DNA of 64,000 nucleotides from Roseibium aestuarii. Lineage in GTDB: Bacteria; Pseudomonadota; Alphaproteobacteria; Rhizobiales; Stappiaceae. The notes below the pieces were generated by a model. It did no database searches, was not told the DNA's origin, and worked only from the letters and a program-made list of their open reading frames with translations. Below are positions 55,142-64,000 of the stretch, piece by piece. Both the position numbers and the translations under genes were made by a program. Positions within the stretch are counted from its first letter, which is position 1, and the number at the start of each line of letters is the position of its first letter. The stretch is taken from the NCBI RefSeq assembly GCF_008477545.1, contig NZ_VORA01000005.1, positions 62,001-126,000 on the forward strand, written 5' to 3'.

Positions 55142-55654
55142 CGATGGCTGGAGGGCGACCCGAAGCGGATCGGGACTGATTGTGTGCCCGCAAATCTGCT
55201 GACACGTCAAGGCGATGGGGCCGGCATGCGCTGACGGCCTCCCGAAAGAGCGCAGAATTCCGCCACAATTTCGGAACCAATCGGGCGCTCTTGCGTTCAA
55301 ATTTCGGCCGCCGATGAGGGCTCCAGATTCAGGTAAGTCATTCAAGGTATTGAAAACAGGCTCTCATAGTGTATTGTTCCAATCCATCAGATGCGATTTT
55401 GATGCCGAAAATACTCATCAGAATGAACGAGCTCGGCGTTCGCATACCTGAAAATTCTGGATCGGTTTGCCATGGGGGACTTGCTGTTCTGAAGACAGCC
55501 CTGTCTATCGGGAATACGTTCCCCTGAACCGGCAGAGGCTCTCGATCCGACACCTCTTTTTCCCAAATAACAACAAGCCTGTCTGGATGACATAAAGTTG
55601 TTTCCAGAGCGGGCCTGCTGTTGTCCTGAAAATCGACTGCTGAGGAGAAATCAG
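55142..55654 (+). promoter_or_regulatory. Long gene-free leader upstream of proX
   Basis: This 513-base region is AT-richer than the flanking genes. It holds the small dyads AGACAG-CC-CTGTCT (55493-55506) and GGGAA-TACG-TTCCC (55510-55523). A minus-strand open frame (55338-55715) overlaps proX and is not protein-like. The region probably contains the osmoregulated promoter of proXWV and a structured 5' UTR. I see no known riboswitch. Confidence 0.35.
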
Positions 55655-56650
55655 ATGAAGAAACTGTTCCTGGCCGCGGCTGCGGCGACCCTGTCCATGG
55701 GGGCGTCCGGTGCAATGGCTGCCGAAGACTGCGGCACCGTGACCGTGGCCGAGATGAACTGGGCTTCCGCTGGCGTTATCGCGCAGATTGACAAGATCAT
55801 TCTGGAAGAGGGCTACGGCTGCAAGGTCGAGCTGGTCACCGGCGACACCATGCCGACCTTCACCTCCATGAGCGAGAAGGGCGAGCCGGACATGGCGCCC
55901 GAGCTCTGGATCAACGCGTTCCGCGAGCCGCTGGACAAGGCCGTGGCCGAAGGCACCCTGGTGATCGGCGGCGAAGTGCTGCTGGATGGTGGCGTCGAAG
56001 GCTGGTGGGTGCCGAAGTACCTGGCCGAAGAACACGGGATCAAGACCGTCGAGGACGCGTTCAAGCATCCGGAACTCTTCCCGGGCGCCGAAGACGAAAG
56101 CAAGGGTGCTTTCTTCAACTGCCCGGCAGGCTGGAACTGCCAGATCACCACGGCCAACCTGTTCAACGCCTATGGCGGTCCGGACGCGGGCTTCGAGCTG
56201 GTGGACTCCGGCTCTGCTGCCGGTCTTGACGGCTCCATCGCTCGCGCTTTCGAGCGCAAGGAAGGCTGGCTGGGCTACTACTGGGCGCCGACCGCCATTC
56301 TCGGCAAGTACGAGATGACCCTGCTGGACTTCGGCGTCGAGCATGACAACGAAGAGTGGAACCGCTGCACGGTGGTCGCCGACTGTACCGACCCGAAGAA
56401 GAACTCATGGGTGAAGTCCGAAGTCTTCACGGTCCTGTCCCCGAGCTTCGTCGAGAAGGCCGGTGTGGCGGTCGATTACGCCAAGGCGCGCGCCTGGCGC
56501 AACGAGACCTGCAACAAGGTCCTGGCCTGGATGACCGAAAATCAGGCCACCAACGAGGATGGCGCCTACTACTTCCTGGAAAACTTCGAGGACGTGTGGA
56601 CCCAGTGGGTCTCCACCGAGGTCGCCGAGAAGATCAAGGCTTCGCTCTGA
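55655..56650 (+). CDS. proX: Glycine betaine/proline ABC transporter binding protein
   Basis: This 331-residue OpuAC-family periplasmic protein has a signal peptide (MKKLFLAAAAATLSMGASGAMAA). Family segments include VTVAEMNWASAGVIAQIDKI, GDTMPTFTSMSEKGEPDMAPELW and GAFFNCPAGWNCQITTANLF. The aromatic residues (Trp in PELW, GWWVP, GWLGYYWAP) would form the betaine box. The paired cysteines are typical of alphaproteobacterial ProX. GAGGAG precedes the ATG. It delivers quaternary ammonium osmolytes to ProWV encoded next. Confidence 0.9.
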   Translation: MKKLFLAAAAATLSMGASGAMAAEDCGTVTVAEMNWASAGVIAQIDKIILEEGYGCKVELVTGDTMPTFTSMSEKGEPDMAPELWINAFREPLDKAVAEGTLVIGGEVLLDGGVEGWWVPKYLAEEHGIKTVEDAFKHPELFPGAEDESKGAFFNCPAGWNCQITTANLFNAYGGPDAGFELVDSGSAAGLDGSIARAFERKEGWLGYYWAPTAILGKYEMTLLDFGVEHDNEEWNRCTVVADCTDPKKNSWVKSEVFTVLSPSFVEKAGVAVDYAKARAWRNETCNKVLAWMTENQATNEDGAYYFLENFEDVWTQWVSTEVAEKIKASL

Positions 56651-56760
56651 TCTGACGCTGCGGGGCGCCTGAGCTGCGCCCCGCACCTGCCCAAGCCCGC
56701 AGCCGGAGCCTCTTGCCCCGGTTGCCTGTCCGTCTCATCCGGAACGTCAGGAAAAACAAT

Positions 56761-57645
56761 ATGGACTGGATCGAATTTCCGTCCCTCGGCCGCCGGGATC
56801 TGCGCGATCTGCGCCTGACCATCGACGGCGCCTTCCGCGAATTCACGCGCGCCTATGGGCCGACCCTCGAACGGGCCTTCGAGCCGCTCGAGGACTTTCT
56901 CGTCTGGCTCGAACATCTGCTTATCGAAAGCCCCTGGCCGCTGGTCCTCATCGGCATCGTCGGCATCGTCTTCCTCCTCAGCCGCAATGTCAGGATCGCG
57001 GCGGGCGCCACGCTCGCCCTGCTGGCCATCGGCTATTTCGGCATGTGGGAAGACACCATGCGCACCATCGCGGTGGTGACGGTCTGCACGATGGTTGCGG
57101 TGATCATCGGCATTCCCATCGGTATCGCCATGGCGCGTTCGGACCGCATGCAGGGGATCATCAATCCGATCCTCGATCTCATGCAGACCATGCCGAGCTT
57201 CGTCTATCTCATTCCCGTGGTGATGATCTTCGGCCTGGGCAAGGTGCCCGGCGTGATCGCCGTGGTGGTCTATGCCATTCCGCCGATGATCCGCCTGACC
57301 AACCTGGGCATCCGGCTCGTCGATCCGGCGGTGCTGGAAGCGGCTGATGCCTTCGGCTCGTCGAGCTTCCAGAAGCTGAGCAAGGTGCAGCTGCCGCTGG
57401 CCCTGCCGACGATCATGGCCGGGATCAACCAGTGCATCATGATGTCGCTCGCCATGGTGGTGGTCGCCTCGATGATCGGCGTGAAGGGCCTCGGCCAGCC
57501 GGTGCTCCAGGCCATCAACAACCAGTATTTCACCATGGGTGTCATGAACGGTCTGGCCATCGTTGCCATCGCCATCATCTTCGACCGCGCCACCCAGGCC
57601 TATGGCAAGCGCCTGCAGAAACACTCGGAGGTGATCCATGGCTGA
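56761..57645 (+). CDS. proW: Glycine betaine/proline ABC transporter permease
   Basis: This 294-residue permease has a soluble N-terminal arm, one TM and a BPD_transp_1 core. The EAA loop is visible as LEAADAFGSSSFQKLSKVQL, and MQTMPSFVYLIPVVMIFGLG is the ProW/OpuAB signature. ATG 56761 follows AGGAAAAAC; an upstream in-frame start lacks similarity. It overlaps proV by eight bases. Confidence 0.92.
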   Translation: MDWIEFPSLGRRDLRDLRLTIDGAFREFTRAYGPTLERAFEPLEDFLVWLEHLLIESPWPLVLIGIVGIVFLLSRNVRIAAGATLALLAIGYFGMWEDTMRTIAVVTVCTMVAVIIGIPIGIAMARSDRMQGIINPILDLMQTMPSFVYLIPVVMIFGLGKVPGVIAVVVYAIPPMIRLTNLGIRLVDPAVLEAADAFGSSSFQKLSKVQLPLALPTIMAGINQCIMMSLAMVVVASMIGVKGLGQPVLQAINNQYFTMGVMNGLAIVAIAIIFDRATQAYGKRLQKHSEVIHG

Positions 57646-58708
57646 TGCAGCTCTCGCCAACGGGGCGAGCGAGGAGGAGCGGGTGGCACATGGCGTCGAG
57701 ATCCGCAACCTCTACAAGATCTTCGGTCCCAACGGAGCGGAGATGGTGGAGAAGGTCAAGGGCGGCATGTCCAAGACCGAGCTCAACGAGAAGCACAATC
57801 ACGTGCTGGGCCTGAACGACATCAACATCTCCATGCCCGGCGGGCAGATCCAGGTGGTGATGGGGCTGTCGGGCTCAGGCAAGTCCACGCTGATCCGCCA
57901 CATCAACCGGCTGATCGATCCCACCGCGGGCGAGGTGCTCTACGGGGATCAGGACGTCTGCGCGATGAACGCGAAGGAGCTGCGGGAATTCCGGCGTCAC
58001 AAGACGGCGATGGTGTTCCAGAAATTCGCGCTCCTGCCCCATCGGACGGTGATCGAGAACACGGTCTATGGTCTGGAAATCCAGGGCGTGAACCGGCGCA
58101 CCGCCCGCAAGGCGGCTGCGCGCTGGATCGCCCGGGTGGGCCTCGAAGGCTTCGAGGACCACTATCCCAACCAGCTGTCAGGCGGCATGCAGCAGCGTGT
58201 GGGTCTGGCCCGGGCGCTGACCAATGACGCGGACATCCTGCTCATGGACGAGGCCTTCTCGGCCCTCGATCCGCTGATCCGGGTCGACATGCAGTCGGTG
58301 CTGCTCGACCTTCAGGCGGAACTGCGCAAGACCATCGTCTTCATCACCCACGATCTGGACGAGGCTCTGCGCCTGGGGGATCGCATCGCCATCCTGCGGG
58401 ACGGCGCGGTGATCCAGCAGGGCACGGGGCAGGAAATCGTGCTGCGTCCGGCCGATGAATACATCTCCAACTTCGTTCAGGAAGTGAACCGGGCCCGGGT
58501 GATCTTCGTCGACACGATCATGGATCGGGGCGAGATCGTGGAAGGGGCACCGGAGCTGCGCCAGCGCATGCTGCTGGAAGATGCGGCCAAGCTCTTTGCC
58601 GAAACCGGTCAGGACCGGGCGAACGTTCTGGACAAGACGGGCCGGCCGATCGGGTCGGTCAGCCTGCAGAGCACGATCTCGGCCATGGTGACGCCGAACA
58701 CCCACTGA
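57638..58708 (+). CDS. proV: Glycine betaine/proline ABC transporter ATPase
   Basis: This 356-residue ATPase has the ProV-type N-terminal IRNLYKIFGPNG, Walker A GLSGSGKSTLIRHINRL, Q-loop VFQKFALLPHRTV, signature LSGGMQQRVGLARAL, Walker B ILLMDEAFSALDPLI and H-loop ITHDLDEALRL. E. coli ProV has 400 residues with two C-terminal CBS domains acting as an ionic-strength sensor. Here only about 80 residues follow the nucleotide domain, so the tandem CBS sensor is largely missing. Osmotic gating must then work differently or rest on transcription. Confidence 0.92.
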   Translation: MADAALANGASEEERVAHGVEIRNLYKIFGPNGAEMVEKVKGGMSKTELNEKHNHVLGLNDINISMPGGQIQVVMGLSGSGKSTLIRHINRLIDPTAGEVLYGDQDVCAMNAKELREFRRHKTAMVFQKFALLPHRTVIENTVYGLEIQGVNRRTARKAAARWIARVGLEGFEDHYPNQLSGGMQQRVGLARALTNDADILLMDEAFSALDPLIRVDMQSVLLDLQAELRKTIVFITHDLDEALRLGDRIAILRDGAVIQQGTGQEIVLRPADEYISNFVQEVNRARVIFVDTIMDRGEIVEGAPELRQRMLLEDAAKLFAETGQDRANVLDKTGRPIGSVSLQSTISAMVTPNTH

Positions 58709-60210: not shown

Positions 60211-62394
60211 CTAGCGGCTCATGATGTCGTCAAGGACCTCGTCGGGCGGTCCATAGATGGTCAGCTGGCCGTTCTGCAGATAGGCGACCTTGTCGGCGAG
60301 CCGCATGTGGCTCGGCCGGTAGGTGGTCATGATCACGGTGGCGGTGCCGCGCATCTTCTCGATCTTCTCCACCAGCAGCTTGTCGCCGGCCTGATCGAGG
60401 CTGCTGCCCGGATTGTCGAGCAGGTAGATCGGCGCCGGGCGCAGGAAGGTGCGGGCCAGAAGCATGAGCTGCTTCAGGTTGTCGGGCATGGCCTGCATCA
60501 GGGTGCCGGTCAGGCGGGTTTCCAGACCTTCGGGCAGGAAGTCGGGATAGTTGTGCAGCCCGAAGTCCTTGAACACCTCCAGCACCTGGGCGTCGTCGGC
60601 CTGGGGATCGGCCATGCGCAGGTTCTGGGCCACCGTGCCATAGAAGAAGTCGAACTCGTCGGGCGCATAGCCGATGCAATAGCGCCATTCGCCCGGGTCG
60701 AGCTGGCGGATGTCCAGGTTGTCGACGAGGATCGCGCCCATCTGGGTGGGATAGAGCCCGAGGATCGCCTTGAGCAGGGAGGACTTGCCCGATCCGCTGG
60801 GGCCGGTGATCGCCAGAACCTCGCCCTTGGGGATTTCCAGCGACAGGTTCTTCAGTGCCGGTTCCTGACGGGTGGGATAGCGCAGCAACAGGCCGGAGAC
60901 GCGCAAGGTGCCCTGGAGCGAGCGCTGCAGGCTGGGCAGGGCACCGGGTTCGCGCTCTAGCGGCACGCGGAACAGGCCGTCGATACGCTCGATGGTCTGC
61001 TGCACCTGACCGAGCTGTGTGAGGCTGAGGAAAGCCTGATGCATGGGGTTGAGAGAGCGCCAGGACAGGGCCATCACGGCGATCAGCGCACCGGCGGTCA
61101 TCTGGCCATCGAGGACCCGTATGGCCCCGAAGGCGAGAACCGCCACCCCGCAGGAGGTCATCATGGTCTGGGACAGGATCTGGATGATTGCCGAGAGGTG
61201 GCGGGTGCGCAGGTTCTTCTGGGCGAAGTCGGAATAGATCGTCCGGTATTTCTCCAGCCACACGTCATTGGCCGACAGGCTGCGGATGGCCCGGTTCTTG
61301 GTCAGGCTTTCGACGGTGATGTTCTGCAGGCGCGACTTGGCTTCCCCGGTCACGGCAATGGCCCGTTTCATGCGCGGCACGAGGAAATAGCCCGCCAGCA
61401 CATAGCCGAAGAGAAGACCAGCCGGCAGCAGGGACAAGGTGCCGCCGATGATCGCCAGGGCGACGATGAAGATCGCCGAGAAGGGCAGGTTGATCAGCGC
61501 ATTGGCCAGGTTGCTGTGAAAGATCTCGCGCACCCCGTCGAACTGGCGCAGGCGGGTGATCTGGGCGCCGATGGGGGCGTTAGAGGTGACCGGCAGGGGC
61601 ATGTGCAGGAAGTGCCGGAAGGTGGAATTGGTGATCACGTTGTCGAGGCGCGTGCCGAAATAGGCCTGCAGGCGCGACTTCGTGTGCTTGGTCAGGGCGT
61701 CAAGGGCGAAGATCAGCAGGATGCCGATCAGCAGGGTCACCAGCACCGACATGGACTTGGCACCCATCGCCTTGTCGTAGATGGTCATGGTGAAGATGGG
61801 CAGGGCGAGCGCCAGGAAGTTGCTCAGCAGGCCGATCAGGAACAGCTTCGCCAGCGTGCCGCGGAACTGGTGTGCCAGACGCGAGGACCAGTGCTTGAAC
61901 TGGGCCTGGCTCTTGAAGGTCTGGGCGTTGTCCGACATCAGGTAGAGCGTGCCGCGGAGCTTGCCACCCGAGGGCAGGCACTGCTCTGCCTTGCTGCGTC
62001 CGCTGTAGGCGAGAAGATCCCCCGCTTCGGTCTTGCCCAGAAGAACGAGAATGTCGTCCTCCGTCTCGAAGAGGCAGGGGAAATACTCCGGCGTGAGGGC
62101 GCCGGGCGACTTGCGCGAGGGTGTGGTCGCGTAGTTCAGCCGCGCTAGGATTGCCCGAAGGCCGTAAATGCTGGCGACGGGCTCGAGATGGGGAAGCGCC
62201 TCGAAGAGGTGTCGCTCCAGCCCGTCCCACTTCAGGGCGCGCAGAAGGGGCAGCAGACAGTTTTCCGCCGGTGTGCTTTCACCCTCCTTGCCGCCGGTTC
62301 TCTGGTGCAGGCGCAGGTCGAGGTCGGCCACGGCGCGGCGTGGGCCGGTCGTGTCACGGGTCATCTGCGGTTCGGAAAAGGCACTGATGGACAT
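60211..62394 (-). CDS. Type I secretion ABC transporter with a degenerate ATPase domain
   Basis: This 727-residue protein starts with a C39-like (cysteine-less) domain of about 150 residues. Six TM helices follow (LIGLLSNFLALALPIFTMTI, PIGAQITRLRQFDGVREI), then a nucleotide-binding domain. Walker A is intact (GPSGSGKSS, Lys537). The Q-loop position reads GYAPDEFDF, the signature reads MPDNL instead of LSGGQ, the Walker B run is IYLLDNPGSSLD with Asn661 in place of the catalytic Glu, and the H-loop histidine is Tyr692. The overall fold is that of LapB/PrsD-like exporters. It lies three bases after the partner gene, which is also degenerate, so the two probably form a heterodimer. Confidence 0.88.
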   Translation of the reverse strand: MSISAFSEPQMTRDTTGPRRAVADLDLRLHQRTGGKEGESTPAENCLLPLLRALKWDGLERHLFEALPHLEPVASIYGLRAILARLNYATTPSRKSPGALTPEYFPCLFETEDDILVLLGKTEAGDLLAYSGRSKAEQCLPSGGKLRGTLYLMSDNAQTFKSQAQFKHWSSRLAHQFRGTLAKLFLIGLLSNFLALALPIFTMTIYDKAMGAKSMSVLVTLLIGILLIFALDALTKHTKSRLQAYFGTRLDNVITNSTFRHFLHMPLPVTSNAPIGAQITRLRQFDGVREIFHSNLANALINLPFSAIFIVALAIIGGTLSLLPAGLLFGYVLAGYFLVPRMKRAIAVTGEAKSRLQNITVESLTKNRAIRSLSANDVWLEKYRTIYSDFAQKNLRTRHLSAIIQILSQTMMTSCGVAVLAFGAIRVLDGQMTAGALIAVMALSWRSLNPMHQAFLSLTQLGQVQQTIERIDGLFRVPLEREPGALPSLQRSLQGTLRVSGLLLRYPTRQEPALKNLSLEIPKGEVLAITGPSGSGKSSLLKAILGLYPTQMGAILVDNLDIRQLDPGEWRYCIGYAPDEFDFFYGTVAQNLRMADPQADDAQVLEVFKDFGLHNYPDFLPEGLETRLTGTLMQAMPDNLKQLMLLARTFLRPAPIYLLDNPGSSLDQAGDKLLVEKIEKMRGTATVIMTTYRPSHMRLADKVAYLQNGQLTIYGPPDEVLDDIMSR

Positions 62395-62397
62395 GGC

Positions 62398-63999
62398 TCA
62401 GCGCTCCTTCCGGGGCGGGGCGTAATAGCCCGATGCGGTTGAGGCTCCGCTCATGGACATGGTGAGGGAGGGGGGCAGGGTGGGACCCTGAGCGCCAGGC
62501 TGTCCGGAGTCGTCCGTCCTCGGCATTCCAGCCGGTTTGTCGGCCGGCGGCGGCGCCAGGCGGCCGCGTTCCAGGCGGATCTCCCGGTCGGCTATGGCCC
62601 GGAAGGAGGGGCGGTGGCTGGCGAGCAAGATGGTCAGCTGACCCTTGATGCGCGTCAGGCCCTGCAGCAACCCGGCTTCGCCCGGCATGTCGAGCACGCC
62701 ATTGGCATTGTCGAGCAGCAGGATCTCCGGTTCGGAGGCAAGCGCGCGGGCGATGGCAATGCGCTGCAGGAAGGAAGCGGTGAGGTTCTCGTCCAGACCG
62801 GCGCCCAGCATGGTGTCATAGCCCTGGGGCAGCAGGTGGATGTCGCGTTCCAGCCCGATCAGGTCCGCGGCGAGGCGGGCCTTGTTCGGATCGGCGCGGG
62901 AGCCGAAGAGGGTGAGGTTCTGCAGGATGGTGCCGGTGAAGACCTGCGCTTCCTGGCCCACATAGGCGATGCGCCGGCGCAGGCTCTGGTGGTCGTCGCC
63001 GAAGAGGTCCAGATCATCGATCAGCACCTTGCCGGAGGTGGGCTGCATGTCGCCGCTGATGAGGCGCAGCAGAGCCGAACGGCCCGAGCCGTCGGGGCCG
63101 GCCAGAGCCACGGTCTCGCAGGCCTCGATGCGGATCTCGCTGTCGGACAGGTCGAGGGGGACGCCGCTCTTGCCTTCGCAGGACACGCGCTGAAGGGTGA
63201 TATGGCCCTCGATCGCTGCGGCGGTCTCGGGATAGGCGTCTTCCGGCGGCAGCTCGAACAGGCGGCTTGCCTCCCGGTGGTCGTGATTGATGCGCTGCAT
63301 GTCGGTCCAGTAGTTCACGCCACGCAGCAGGGGCTGCATCACCTGACCGGCGAGAAGCGTGCAGGCGGCGACCGCGCCGATGCTGAGCTGCTCGTGAATG
63401 ACGAGGACCGCCCCCACGGCGACGATGAAGACGGTCGTCAGGCCGGTGAAGAGGGTGGAGATGTCGCGGGCGTTGTTGGACCACTCGATGTAATTCTGCC
63501 CTTCCTCGGAGACGGTGCGCTGAAGGCGCTCGAAGCGGCGCATGATCATCGGCTCCAGGGCCATGGCCTTGATGGTGGTGAGGCCGGCCAGAACTTCCAG
63601 CAGGAAGTCGTACTTGCGCTGATCGAGCTGGGCCCGGCTTTCGACCAGTCCCTGCAGCCTGCCGTTGATGGAGGAGGTGAGCAGGGTGAAAACGAGGATG
63701 AGCGCGATGGGCACGAAGCCGATCGGTCCGCCGATGACGAAGAGAAGGGCCAGGAAGATCAGGCTGGCGGGCAGGTCGATCACGAGAAGCCGGGAGGGGC
63801 TGGCATAGTGATCCGCGAGCGATTGCAGCGCCTTCAGCTCCTCGATCTGGCGCGAGACGCTCATGCGGGCGCGGGTTTCCGAGCGGGCGTAGAGGATCCG
63901 CCGCATGGCCTCCATGTGGGCCTTGTGGCTGAAGCTCGCCGCGAGCCAGGAAACGACAAAGCCGCGCATGATCTTGAGGGTCGCGTCCAGAAACAGCAC
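62398..63999 (-). CDS. Second type I secretion ABC subunit, degenerate, 5' end outside window
   Basis: Of this ABC exporter half, 533 residues are visible; the N-terminus lies beyond the window end. The TM domain shows the type I secretion pattern SVSRQIEELKALQSLADHYA and VIDLPASLIFLALLFVIGGP. In the ATPase domain the Walker A lysine is arginine (GPDGSGRSA). The Q-loop is kept (YVGQEAQVF), the signature reads LTASF, Walker B is ILLLDNANGVLD with Asn for the catalytic Glu, and the H-loop His is kept (ASHRPSF). A Pro/Gly/Ser-rich tail of about 55 residues follows. The ATG of the next ABC gene begins three bases after its stop. Confidence 0.85.
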   Translation of the reverse strand: MLFLDATLKIMRGFVVSWLAASFSHKAHMEAMRRILYARSETRARMSVSRQIEELKALQSLADHYASPSRLLVIDLPASLIFLALLFVIGGPIGFVPIALILVFTLLTSSINGRLQGLVESRAQLDQRKYDFLLEVLAGLTTIKAMALEPMIMRRFERLQRTVSEEGQNYIEWSNNARDISTLFTGLTTVFIVAVGAVLVIHEQLSIGAVAACTLLAGQVMQPLLRGVNYWTDMQRINHDHREASRLFELPPEDAYPETAAAIEGHITLQRVSCEGKSGVPLDLSDSEIRIEACETVALAGPDGSGRSALLRLISGDMQPTSGKVLIDDLDLFGDDHQSLRRRIAYVGQEAQVFTGTILQNLTLFGSRADPNKARLAADLIGLERDIHLLPQGYDTMLGAGLDENLTASFLQRIAIARALASEPEILLLDNANGVLDMPGEAGLLQGLTRIKGQLTILLASHRPSFRAIADREIRLERGRLAPPPADKPAGMPRTDDSGQPGAQGPTLPPSLTMSMSGASTASGYYAPPRKER

Positions 64000-64000
64000 C

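Follow-up and report, generated by a model that had tools for sequence, protein, structure and literature searches.

We analysed a type I secretion system (T1SS) locus of Roseibium aestuarii whose exporter consists of two different ATP-binding cassette (ABC) proteins, here called subunit A and subunit B. The window, i.e. the whole stretch of 64,000 nucleotides that was analysed, lies on contig 17 (bases 62001-126000); the genome measures 4.35 Mb. The locus as a whole is labelled L012 (L012 base n is window base n+58000), and positions past 64000 are given in window numbering. The minus strand carries, in the direction of transcription, first subunit B (64260 to 62398), then subunit A (62394 to 60211), which starts 3 bases past the stop of B, and after a gap of 32 bases comes the gene of an HlyD adaptor (60178 to 58844), one of two HlyD matches over the cut-off in this genome. 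Profiles PF00664 and PF00005 scored above cut-off in both A and B, i.e. a transmembrane domain (TMD) and a nucleotide-binding domain (NBD) are fused in one chain. The best NCBIfam match of either subunit was LssB (TIGR03375; 430.6 bits for A and 358 for B, against a cut-off of 693.1), and neither subunit exceeded the curated NCBIfam cut-offs for LssB, PrtD or HlyB. A preliminary description of the window had placed B at 62398-63999; the start was right, but the end was not, as the window edge cuts B and its full frame of 620 amino acids ends at 64260. The intact frames and preserved partner genes noted there were borne out (both frames are open, with HlyD beside them), as was the giant RTX protein or adhesin that it had proposed to look for past 64000: a divergent frame of 2,561 amino acids (P0004) carries 12 cadherin stretches and, near its end, 2 RTX stretches. 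With the TolC-like gene beyond it, A, B, HlyD and the cadherin/RTX adhesin make up a complete T1SS locus (Table 1).

Table 1. Features of the T1SS locus and of its two nucleotide-binding domains (window numbering)
Feature	Position	Strand	Remark
HlyD-family type I secretion periplasmic adaptor, 444 amino acids	58844..60178	-	TIGR01843 314.3 bits, cut-off 208.65
Subunit A: N-terminal region, TMD and NBD, 727 amino acids	60211..62394	-	TIGR03375 430.6 bits, below cut-off 693.1
A H-loop Tyr692 (canonical His)	60319..60321	-	Tyr in 14/14 clade pairs
A Walker B / D-loop IYLLDNPGSSLD (IYLLDN); Asp660 kept, Asn661 for catalytic Glu	60394..60429	-	Glu 0/14
A signature position AMPDNLKQL (canonical LSGGQ)	60466..60492	-	clade-conserved Asp 14, Pro 13, Asn 13 of 14
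A Q-loop position Asp579 (canonical Gln)	60658..60660	-	clade: Gln 0/14, Glu 12, Asp 2
A Walker A GPSGSGKSS, Lys537 kept	60778..60804	-	Lys in 14/14 clade pairs
Subunit B: TMD and NBD, window part of 620-amino-acid frame	62398..64000	-	frame extends to 64260 (L012:4398-6260)
B H-loop His549 kept	62614..62616	-	His in 14/14 clade pairs
B Walker B / D-loop ILLLDNANGVLD (ILLLDN); Asn518 for catalytic Glu	62689..62724	-	Glu 0/14: Asp 13, Asn 1
B signature position NLTASFLQR (canonical LSGGQ)	62761..62787	-	Thr and Ser in 14/14 clade pairs
B Q-loop Gln436 kept in own copy	62953..62955	-	Asn in other 13 clade pairs
B Walker A GPDGSGRSA, Arg394 for Lys	63073..63099	-	Arg in 14/14 clade pairs
Cadherin/RTX adhesin frame (P0004)	64427..72112		divergent, past window
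TolC-like gene	72933..74441	-	past window

According to a passage of PubMed Central article PMC7756269, in a composite nucleotide site one NBD provides the A-loop, Walker A, Walker B and the Q- and H-loops and the other NBD provides the signature. Site 1 (Walker motifs of A, signature of B) has Lys, Asp for Gln, Asp, Asn for Glu and Tyr for His, together with LTASF. Site 2 (Walker motifs of B, signature of A) has Arg for Lys, Gln, Asp, Asn for Glu and His, together with MPDNL. The canonical set of Walker A Lys, LSGGQ, Walker B Glu and H-loop His is present in neither A nor B. Re-read residue by residue, all calls of the preliminary description for the two subunits were correct, and its statement that neither composite site is canonical stands, motifs being lost in each. 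The nucleotide-binding residues kept at site 1 are the A-loop Tyr506, Walker A Lys537 and the Mg-binding Asp660; at site 2 some nucleotide-binding residues are gone too.

The losses recur in related species. A family-wide search with A (87 genomes, E 1e-100) gave matches in 35 genomes from 2 of 7 genera, which, the window itself excepted, fell into two identity sets, 58-70% and 44-48%. The first set and our own genome, together 15 genomes out of 45 in the genus, are referred to as the clade. We aligned 14 clade pairs, namely our own and those of 13 of the 14 relatives with longer loci, the fourteenth being L016 (Roseibium denhamense). Subunit A keeps the A-loop Tyr, the Walker A Lys, the Walker B Asp and the D-loop Asp in all 14 pairs and never the Q-loop Gln, the catalytic Glu (Asp in 10, Asn in 4) or the H-loop His. 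In B the Walker B Asp is found in 8 pairs and Asn in 6, and the A-loop is variable; the six pairs whose B lacks the Mg-binding Asp (LND for LDE) are L178 and L182-L186. Loss of Glu and of LSGGQ in both subunits and the Lys-to-Arg change in B were seen in 14/14 aligned pairs and in L016, and because of this recurrence they are more than chance. The replacements themselves are conserved across species (Arg of B and Tyr of A, each 14/14). A, B, HlyD and the adhesin each had a homologue in all 14 clade loci (7 of the 14 adhesin frames overrun the end of their stretch), the A frame was free of internal stops in 15 clade genomes and B frames were open in 15 loci. Canonical orthologues or sequencing errors at the motif codons, which the preliminary description had named as findings that would speak against its view, did not turn up: no clade pair has the canonical motifs, and errors are excluded by the 15 genomes. 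We are close to certain of the observation itself: the A-B pair is conserved and intact, it is accompanied by HlyD, TolC and a giant adhesin, and the residues of a competent ABC ATPase are present at neither of its composite sites. In a second set of Roseibium/Labrenzia pairs (L021, L022, L024-L028, L030 and L064), A carries Asn at the Glu position and Gln at the His position, and B keeps Lys, Glu and His; here HlyD is not immediately downstream of A.

We estimated selection as the ratio of nonsynonymous to synonymous rates (dN/dS, Nei-Gojobori), which cannot be relied on where dS approaches or exceeds 1. In seven within-clade comparisons, several of which share members, dN/dS was 0.000-0.062 for the NBD of A, 0.050-0.109 for the NBD of B and 0.007-0.066 for the TMDs of both. 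A comparison in another genus (L188 with L189) gave NBD values of 0.074 (A) and 0.098 (B), and L175 with L176 gave 0.118 for the A NBD at a dS of 1.8, B being saturated with no value. Mean column identity over the 14 pairs was 0.873 (NBD) and 0.867 (TMD) in A and 0.791 (NBD) and 0.840 (TMD) in B. On the strength of these ratios and identities, the clade is constrained, our own copy somewhat less so and the B NBD least, and the A NBD is under strong purifying selection. The lower constraint on our own copy shows in its NBD dN/dS against L174 (0.172 for A and 0.282 for B, at a dS near 1) and in its being the longest branch among the clade rows of two trees. Both observations would fit a pair that is losing function and whose motifs have drifted, but such decay is very improbable and for the clade it is contradicted: the A NBD has a dN/dS near zero among close pairs, the same replacements are fixed across species, HlyD and the adhesin are retained alongside, and no stops interrupt A in 15 genomes or B in 15 loci. 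The marks of a pseudogene, broken frames and relaxed selection across orthologues, were not found; frames are open and dN/dS is well below 1. The 15 genomes, the open frames and the low dN/dS together rule out both a sequencing error and a decayed clade.

The clade belongs to a larger family of paired exporters. A profile search with A gave at least 527 stretches encoding some ABC relative; of the best 80, most had the gene order B, A, HlyD, the exceptions including the second Roseibium set as well as L074 and L090, at which B was not found. In a phylum sample, 46 of 299 genomes matched at 1e-150, and 42 of the 46 were from outside the class of the window; the paired family spans several classes and is not confined to Alphaproteobacteria. 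Eighteen loci read from these matches were either split (L190-L198) or a single frame of 1,306-1,484 amino acids (L207-L215). A- and B-like halves were found in 18/18 and LSGGQ or LSGGE in 0/18. All nine long frames are true B-A fusions, and their Walker B motifs, as caught by pattern, mostly keep Glu; B and A are also fused in a single frame in L020 and L099. Such natural fusions lend indirect support to a physical A-B heterodimer.

Of 124 A genes counted, 119 had B on the same stretch and five did not. These pair counts drop L097 (a duplicate of our own locus), L017, L018, L019 and L029 (duplicates of L180, L184, L186 and L177, respectively) and L016, even though the last shows the same losses; L145-L173, L190-L206 and L207-L215 are also outside them. 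The 119 pairs were thinned to 106 distinct ones, with L050 and L081, whose B frames are split, counted by their best piece and left out of the 104-row tree. An LSGGQ-like signature was present in neither subunit of any of the 106 pairs. As a control we used 19 other T1SS stretches and L010, a second exporter locus of our own genome, classed by the number of ABC genes per stretch: LSGGQ was found in 17/17 with a single ABC gene and in 0/3 with two. The five residues Lys, Gln, Asp, Glu and His were complete at site 1 in 35 distinct pairs, at site 2 in 8, at both sites in 6 and at neither in 69. The consensus site kept by heterodimers with one degenerate site is absent from the Roseibium clade.

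Trees were quick ones, with Shimodaira-Hasegawa-like approximate likelihood ratio (SH-aLRT) support only. When 46 A, 46 B and 17 LSGGQ exporters were placed in one tree, each group lay on one side of a branch; the outgroup of this tree was defined by its holding LSGGQ, and LSGGQ there is hence no result of the tree. By eye the A and B halves branch alike, with L132, L138 and L144 branching first within both, and in these three A keeps all five residues while B does not. Since the first-branching pairs keep a near-complete site in A, loss of the second site appears to be derived, and the ancestor was probably a heterodimer with one site, which disappeared subsequently. The separate groups, the parallel branching, the presence of B on the stretch of 119 of 124 A genes and the fused frames mark A and B as paralogous subunits that form a unit. 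Glu is missing from both subunits in 17 of the 106 distinct pairs, i.e. thirteen of the clade and L020, L053, L087 and L123, and on the TMD tree (104 rows) this double loss amounts to five changes, also five when starred branches alone are counted. L087 and L123 sit on flagged long branches with further residues lost and may be decaying; the branch of L020 is 0.74, more than 4 times the median. In nine other pairs neither subunit has the Walker A Lys (A has Thr, Val, Ala or Ser there and B has Arg), while A keeps Glu. They comprise L035, L037, L040, L044, L054, L055, L056, L060 and L061, seven from Parvularculaceae and two from untyped alphaproteobacteria, and represent a second route to double loss. 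A salt bridge was considered between the Asp of the A signature and the lost Walker A Lys of B; the two states occurred together in 47 of 104 rows, both were absent in 38 and 13 + 6 rows were discordant, and independent contrasts gave 1.7 with and 0.4 against, of 9. Contrasts of Glu loss in A were 1.8 with and 0.1 against for Gln loss in A and 0.0 with and 2.3 against for His loss in A, of 6 in each case; all three sets are too few for significance. Our pair represents a derived state, arrived at more than once, within a distinct family of paired exporters that lacks LSGGQ throughout; the preliminary description had not foreseen this.

That description had also suggested a third ATPase. Frames of at least 250 amino acids from B to the end of L012 encode the adhesin, TolC and one protein that is fumarase-like by eye, and there is no third ABC exporter among them. 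On the other side of HlyD, an uptake-type ABC operon on the plus strand (binding protein, permease and canonical ATPase, 55598-58708; betaine-type by eye and motif) converges on the T1SS locus. Its ATPase (57638-58708) was rejected as a third exporter ATPase because it belongs to this separate convergent operon; an uptake-type ATPase lies convergently beside HlyD in 13/14 clade loci, L182 being without it. An engine could also be borrowed from elsewhere in the genome, with A-B serving as the structural or substrate-selecting part of an assembly that is powered by a canonical ABC protein, for example of PrtD type. A haemolysin system is reportedly credited with three ABC transporters in the title of Zhao et al. 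2022, which would fit such an arrangement. Our genome does hold a PrtD-type T1SS exporter with canonical motifs (L010: GPSASGKS, LSGGQ, LDEP and AHRP), and it matches in 42 of the 45 genomes of the genus at 1e-60. L010, however, adjoins an HlyD and an RTX frame of its own, as the sole other exporter with an over-cut-off T1SS adaptor in the genome. In addition, the clade genome G231 has the degenerate pair, yet it lacks any match to the PrtD-type exporter at 1e-60 and any T1SS adaptor at E 1e-30 beyond the HlyD of this pair; its other LssB-like matches at 1e-60 (L201-L206) have LSGGQ or LSGGE, and no T1SS adaptor was found with them. Another six genomes of the clade gave two or three HlyD matches apiece. 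Because G231 has one adaptor only, a second T1SS engine does not seem to be required in every clade member, though an ATPase of another kind is possible. The third ATPase is thus disfavoured, and given also the low dN/dS of the A and B TMDs we consider a borrowed engine unlikely. Elsewhere in our genome, an ABC-type frame of more than 900 amino acids (L008:1000-3714) has the Walker A GPDGSGRSE and apparently a large insertion in its NBD.

Single-chain AlphaFold2 models had a mean predicted local distance difference test score (pLDDT) of 80.3 for A and 87.2 for B, with the NBDs mostly at 80-97 and a few blocks at 68-79. For both subunits the closest solved structure was HlyB in the HlyB/HlyD complex (8dck), with template modelling scores by query of 0.77 and 0.74. 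The models indicate that the ABC exporter fold is kept and are silent on nucleotide.

How could such a pair work? We propose that A and B assemble as a heterodimer that exports this one adhesin. A would bind ATP, as no clade pair has lost the A-loop Tyr, Walker A Lys or Walker B Asp of this subunit, and ATP bound at site 1 would close or lock the NBD dimer and so gate the conduit, while the site of B would be a pseudo-site. Hydrolysis would be absent or rare, serving to reset the exporter once for each substrate and not to power stroke after stroke. The main bias on threading of the chain would come from outside, where the cadherin and RTX domains fold in a calcium-dependent manner. We put the probability of this whole proposal at roughly 0.45. 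The more general idea of an ABC-fold exporter that moves giant adhesins without sustained hydrolysis, with ATP structural or gating in A, a pseudo-site in B and the work done by folding outside, is one that we hold with considerable doubt. Elements of the proposal have precedents in passages of published work: in TmrAB, ATP binding alone drives the translocation switch (PMC7205462), and a Brownian ratchet has been stated for RTX proteins (PMC8486122). Several points weigh against it. The return step of TmrAB still needs hydrolysis, according to the same passage of PMC7205462; in a passage of PMC5018854, a hydrolysis-deficient His mutant of HlyB left no substrate at the surface and the rate of HlyA secretion was independent of outside calcium, so that the model system establishes neither export free of hydrolysis nor a drive by calcium. 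Our own copy, as described above, is less constrained than its relatives. Finally, the His of B (14/14) and the frequent Asp at the Glu position hint at residual catalysis.

Residual catalysis is the main rival to the proposal and a quite plausible one, though we would not bet on it. The exporter would be a genuine ATPase, though a slow one that needs only a few turnovers for each adhesin, with hydrolysis either at site 2 through the His of B and the Asp or Asn that replaces Glu or at site 1 through Asp. Asp occupies the Glu position in A in 10/14 and in B in 13/14 clade pairs. The part of PMC7756269 on such replacements reports Glu-to-Asp sites as slow hydrolysers and residual ATPase in ABCB1 with both Walker B Glu mutated, and His is described as essential to hydrolysis by HlyB in the passage of PMC5018854. 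On the other hand, site 2 has Arg for Lys in 14/14 pairs, no LSGGQ and, in 6/14, Asn for the Mg-binding Asp. In our own copy, Asn occupies the Glu position of both subunits and Tyr that of the A H-loop His, and the degenerate site of Pdr5 has the same Glu-to-Asn and His-to-Tyr changes (PMC7756269, in part).

With both of its ATP sites degenerate, the pair of these marine Roseibium bacteria may run unlike textbook ABC exporters, with the adjacent giant surface protein as its probable cargo. A conserved and selected exporter clade without a competent site would separate the role of ATP binding from that of hydrolysis in protein secretion and would be a natural experiment on what drives T1SS substrates, a question raised in a passage of PMC5018854. 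The clade, moreover, is part of a paired T1SS family that is widespread and includes split as well as fused members. Among the matches listed in open-licence PMC articles, which do not show absence from print, there was no description of this pair, of the paired family or of a natural exporter with two degenerate sites.

Compared with known systems, the locus is closest to the LapB/HlyB-type T1SS (TIGR03375 LssB, TIGR01846 HlyB), with which it shares LssB as the best match, the HlyB fold and HlyD, TolC and RTX neighbours. It differs in having two different subunits, scores far below the LssB cut-off, no LSGGQ and no catalytic Glu. The four-component MARTX T1SS with RtxB and RtxE, as described in part of PMC3034196, likewise has two ABC proteins, both of whose genes appear to be needed, an HlyD kind of adaptor, TolC and a divergent giant substrate gene; its substrate, however, is a toxin, and the likeness comes from the published description. 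The heterodimers TmrAB, TM287/288, TAP and MsRv1273c/72c are asymmetric pairs with similar replacements (Glu to Asp, signature and H-loop), and ABCG5/G8 has the Walker A Lys-to-Arg change (passages of PMC7756269). In Pdr5 the degenerate site NBS1 has Glu to Asn, His to Tyr and an altered Walker A Lys and signature (same source), but Pdr5 is a full-length drug pump of reverse topology with a canonical second site. The parts of this review of degenerate sites that bear on the question treat exporters keeping one hydrolysing site, and TmrAB, TM287/288, TAP and MsRv1273c/72c are described with one such site, whereas here neither site is consensus. Thus, T1SS and heterodimeric ABC exporters are both known, and what is new in the Roseibium pair is two degenerate sites that are kept by selection.

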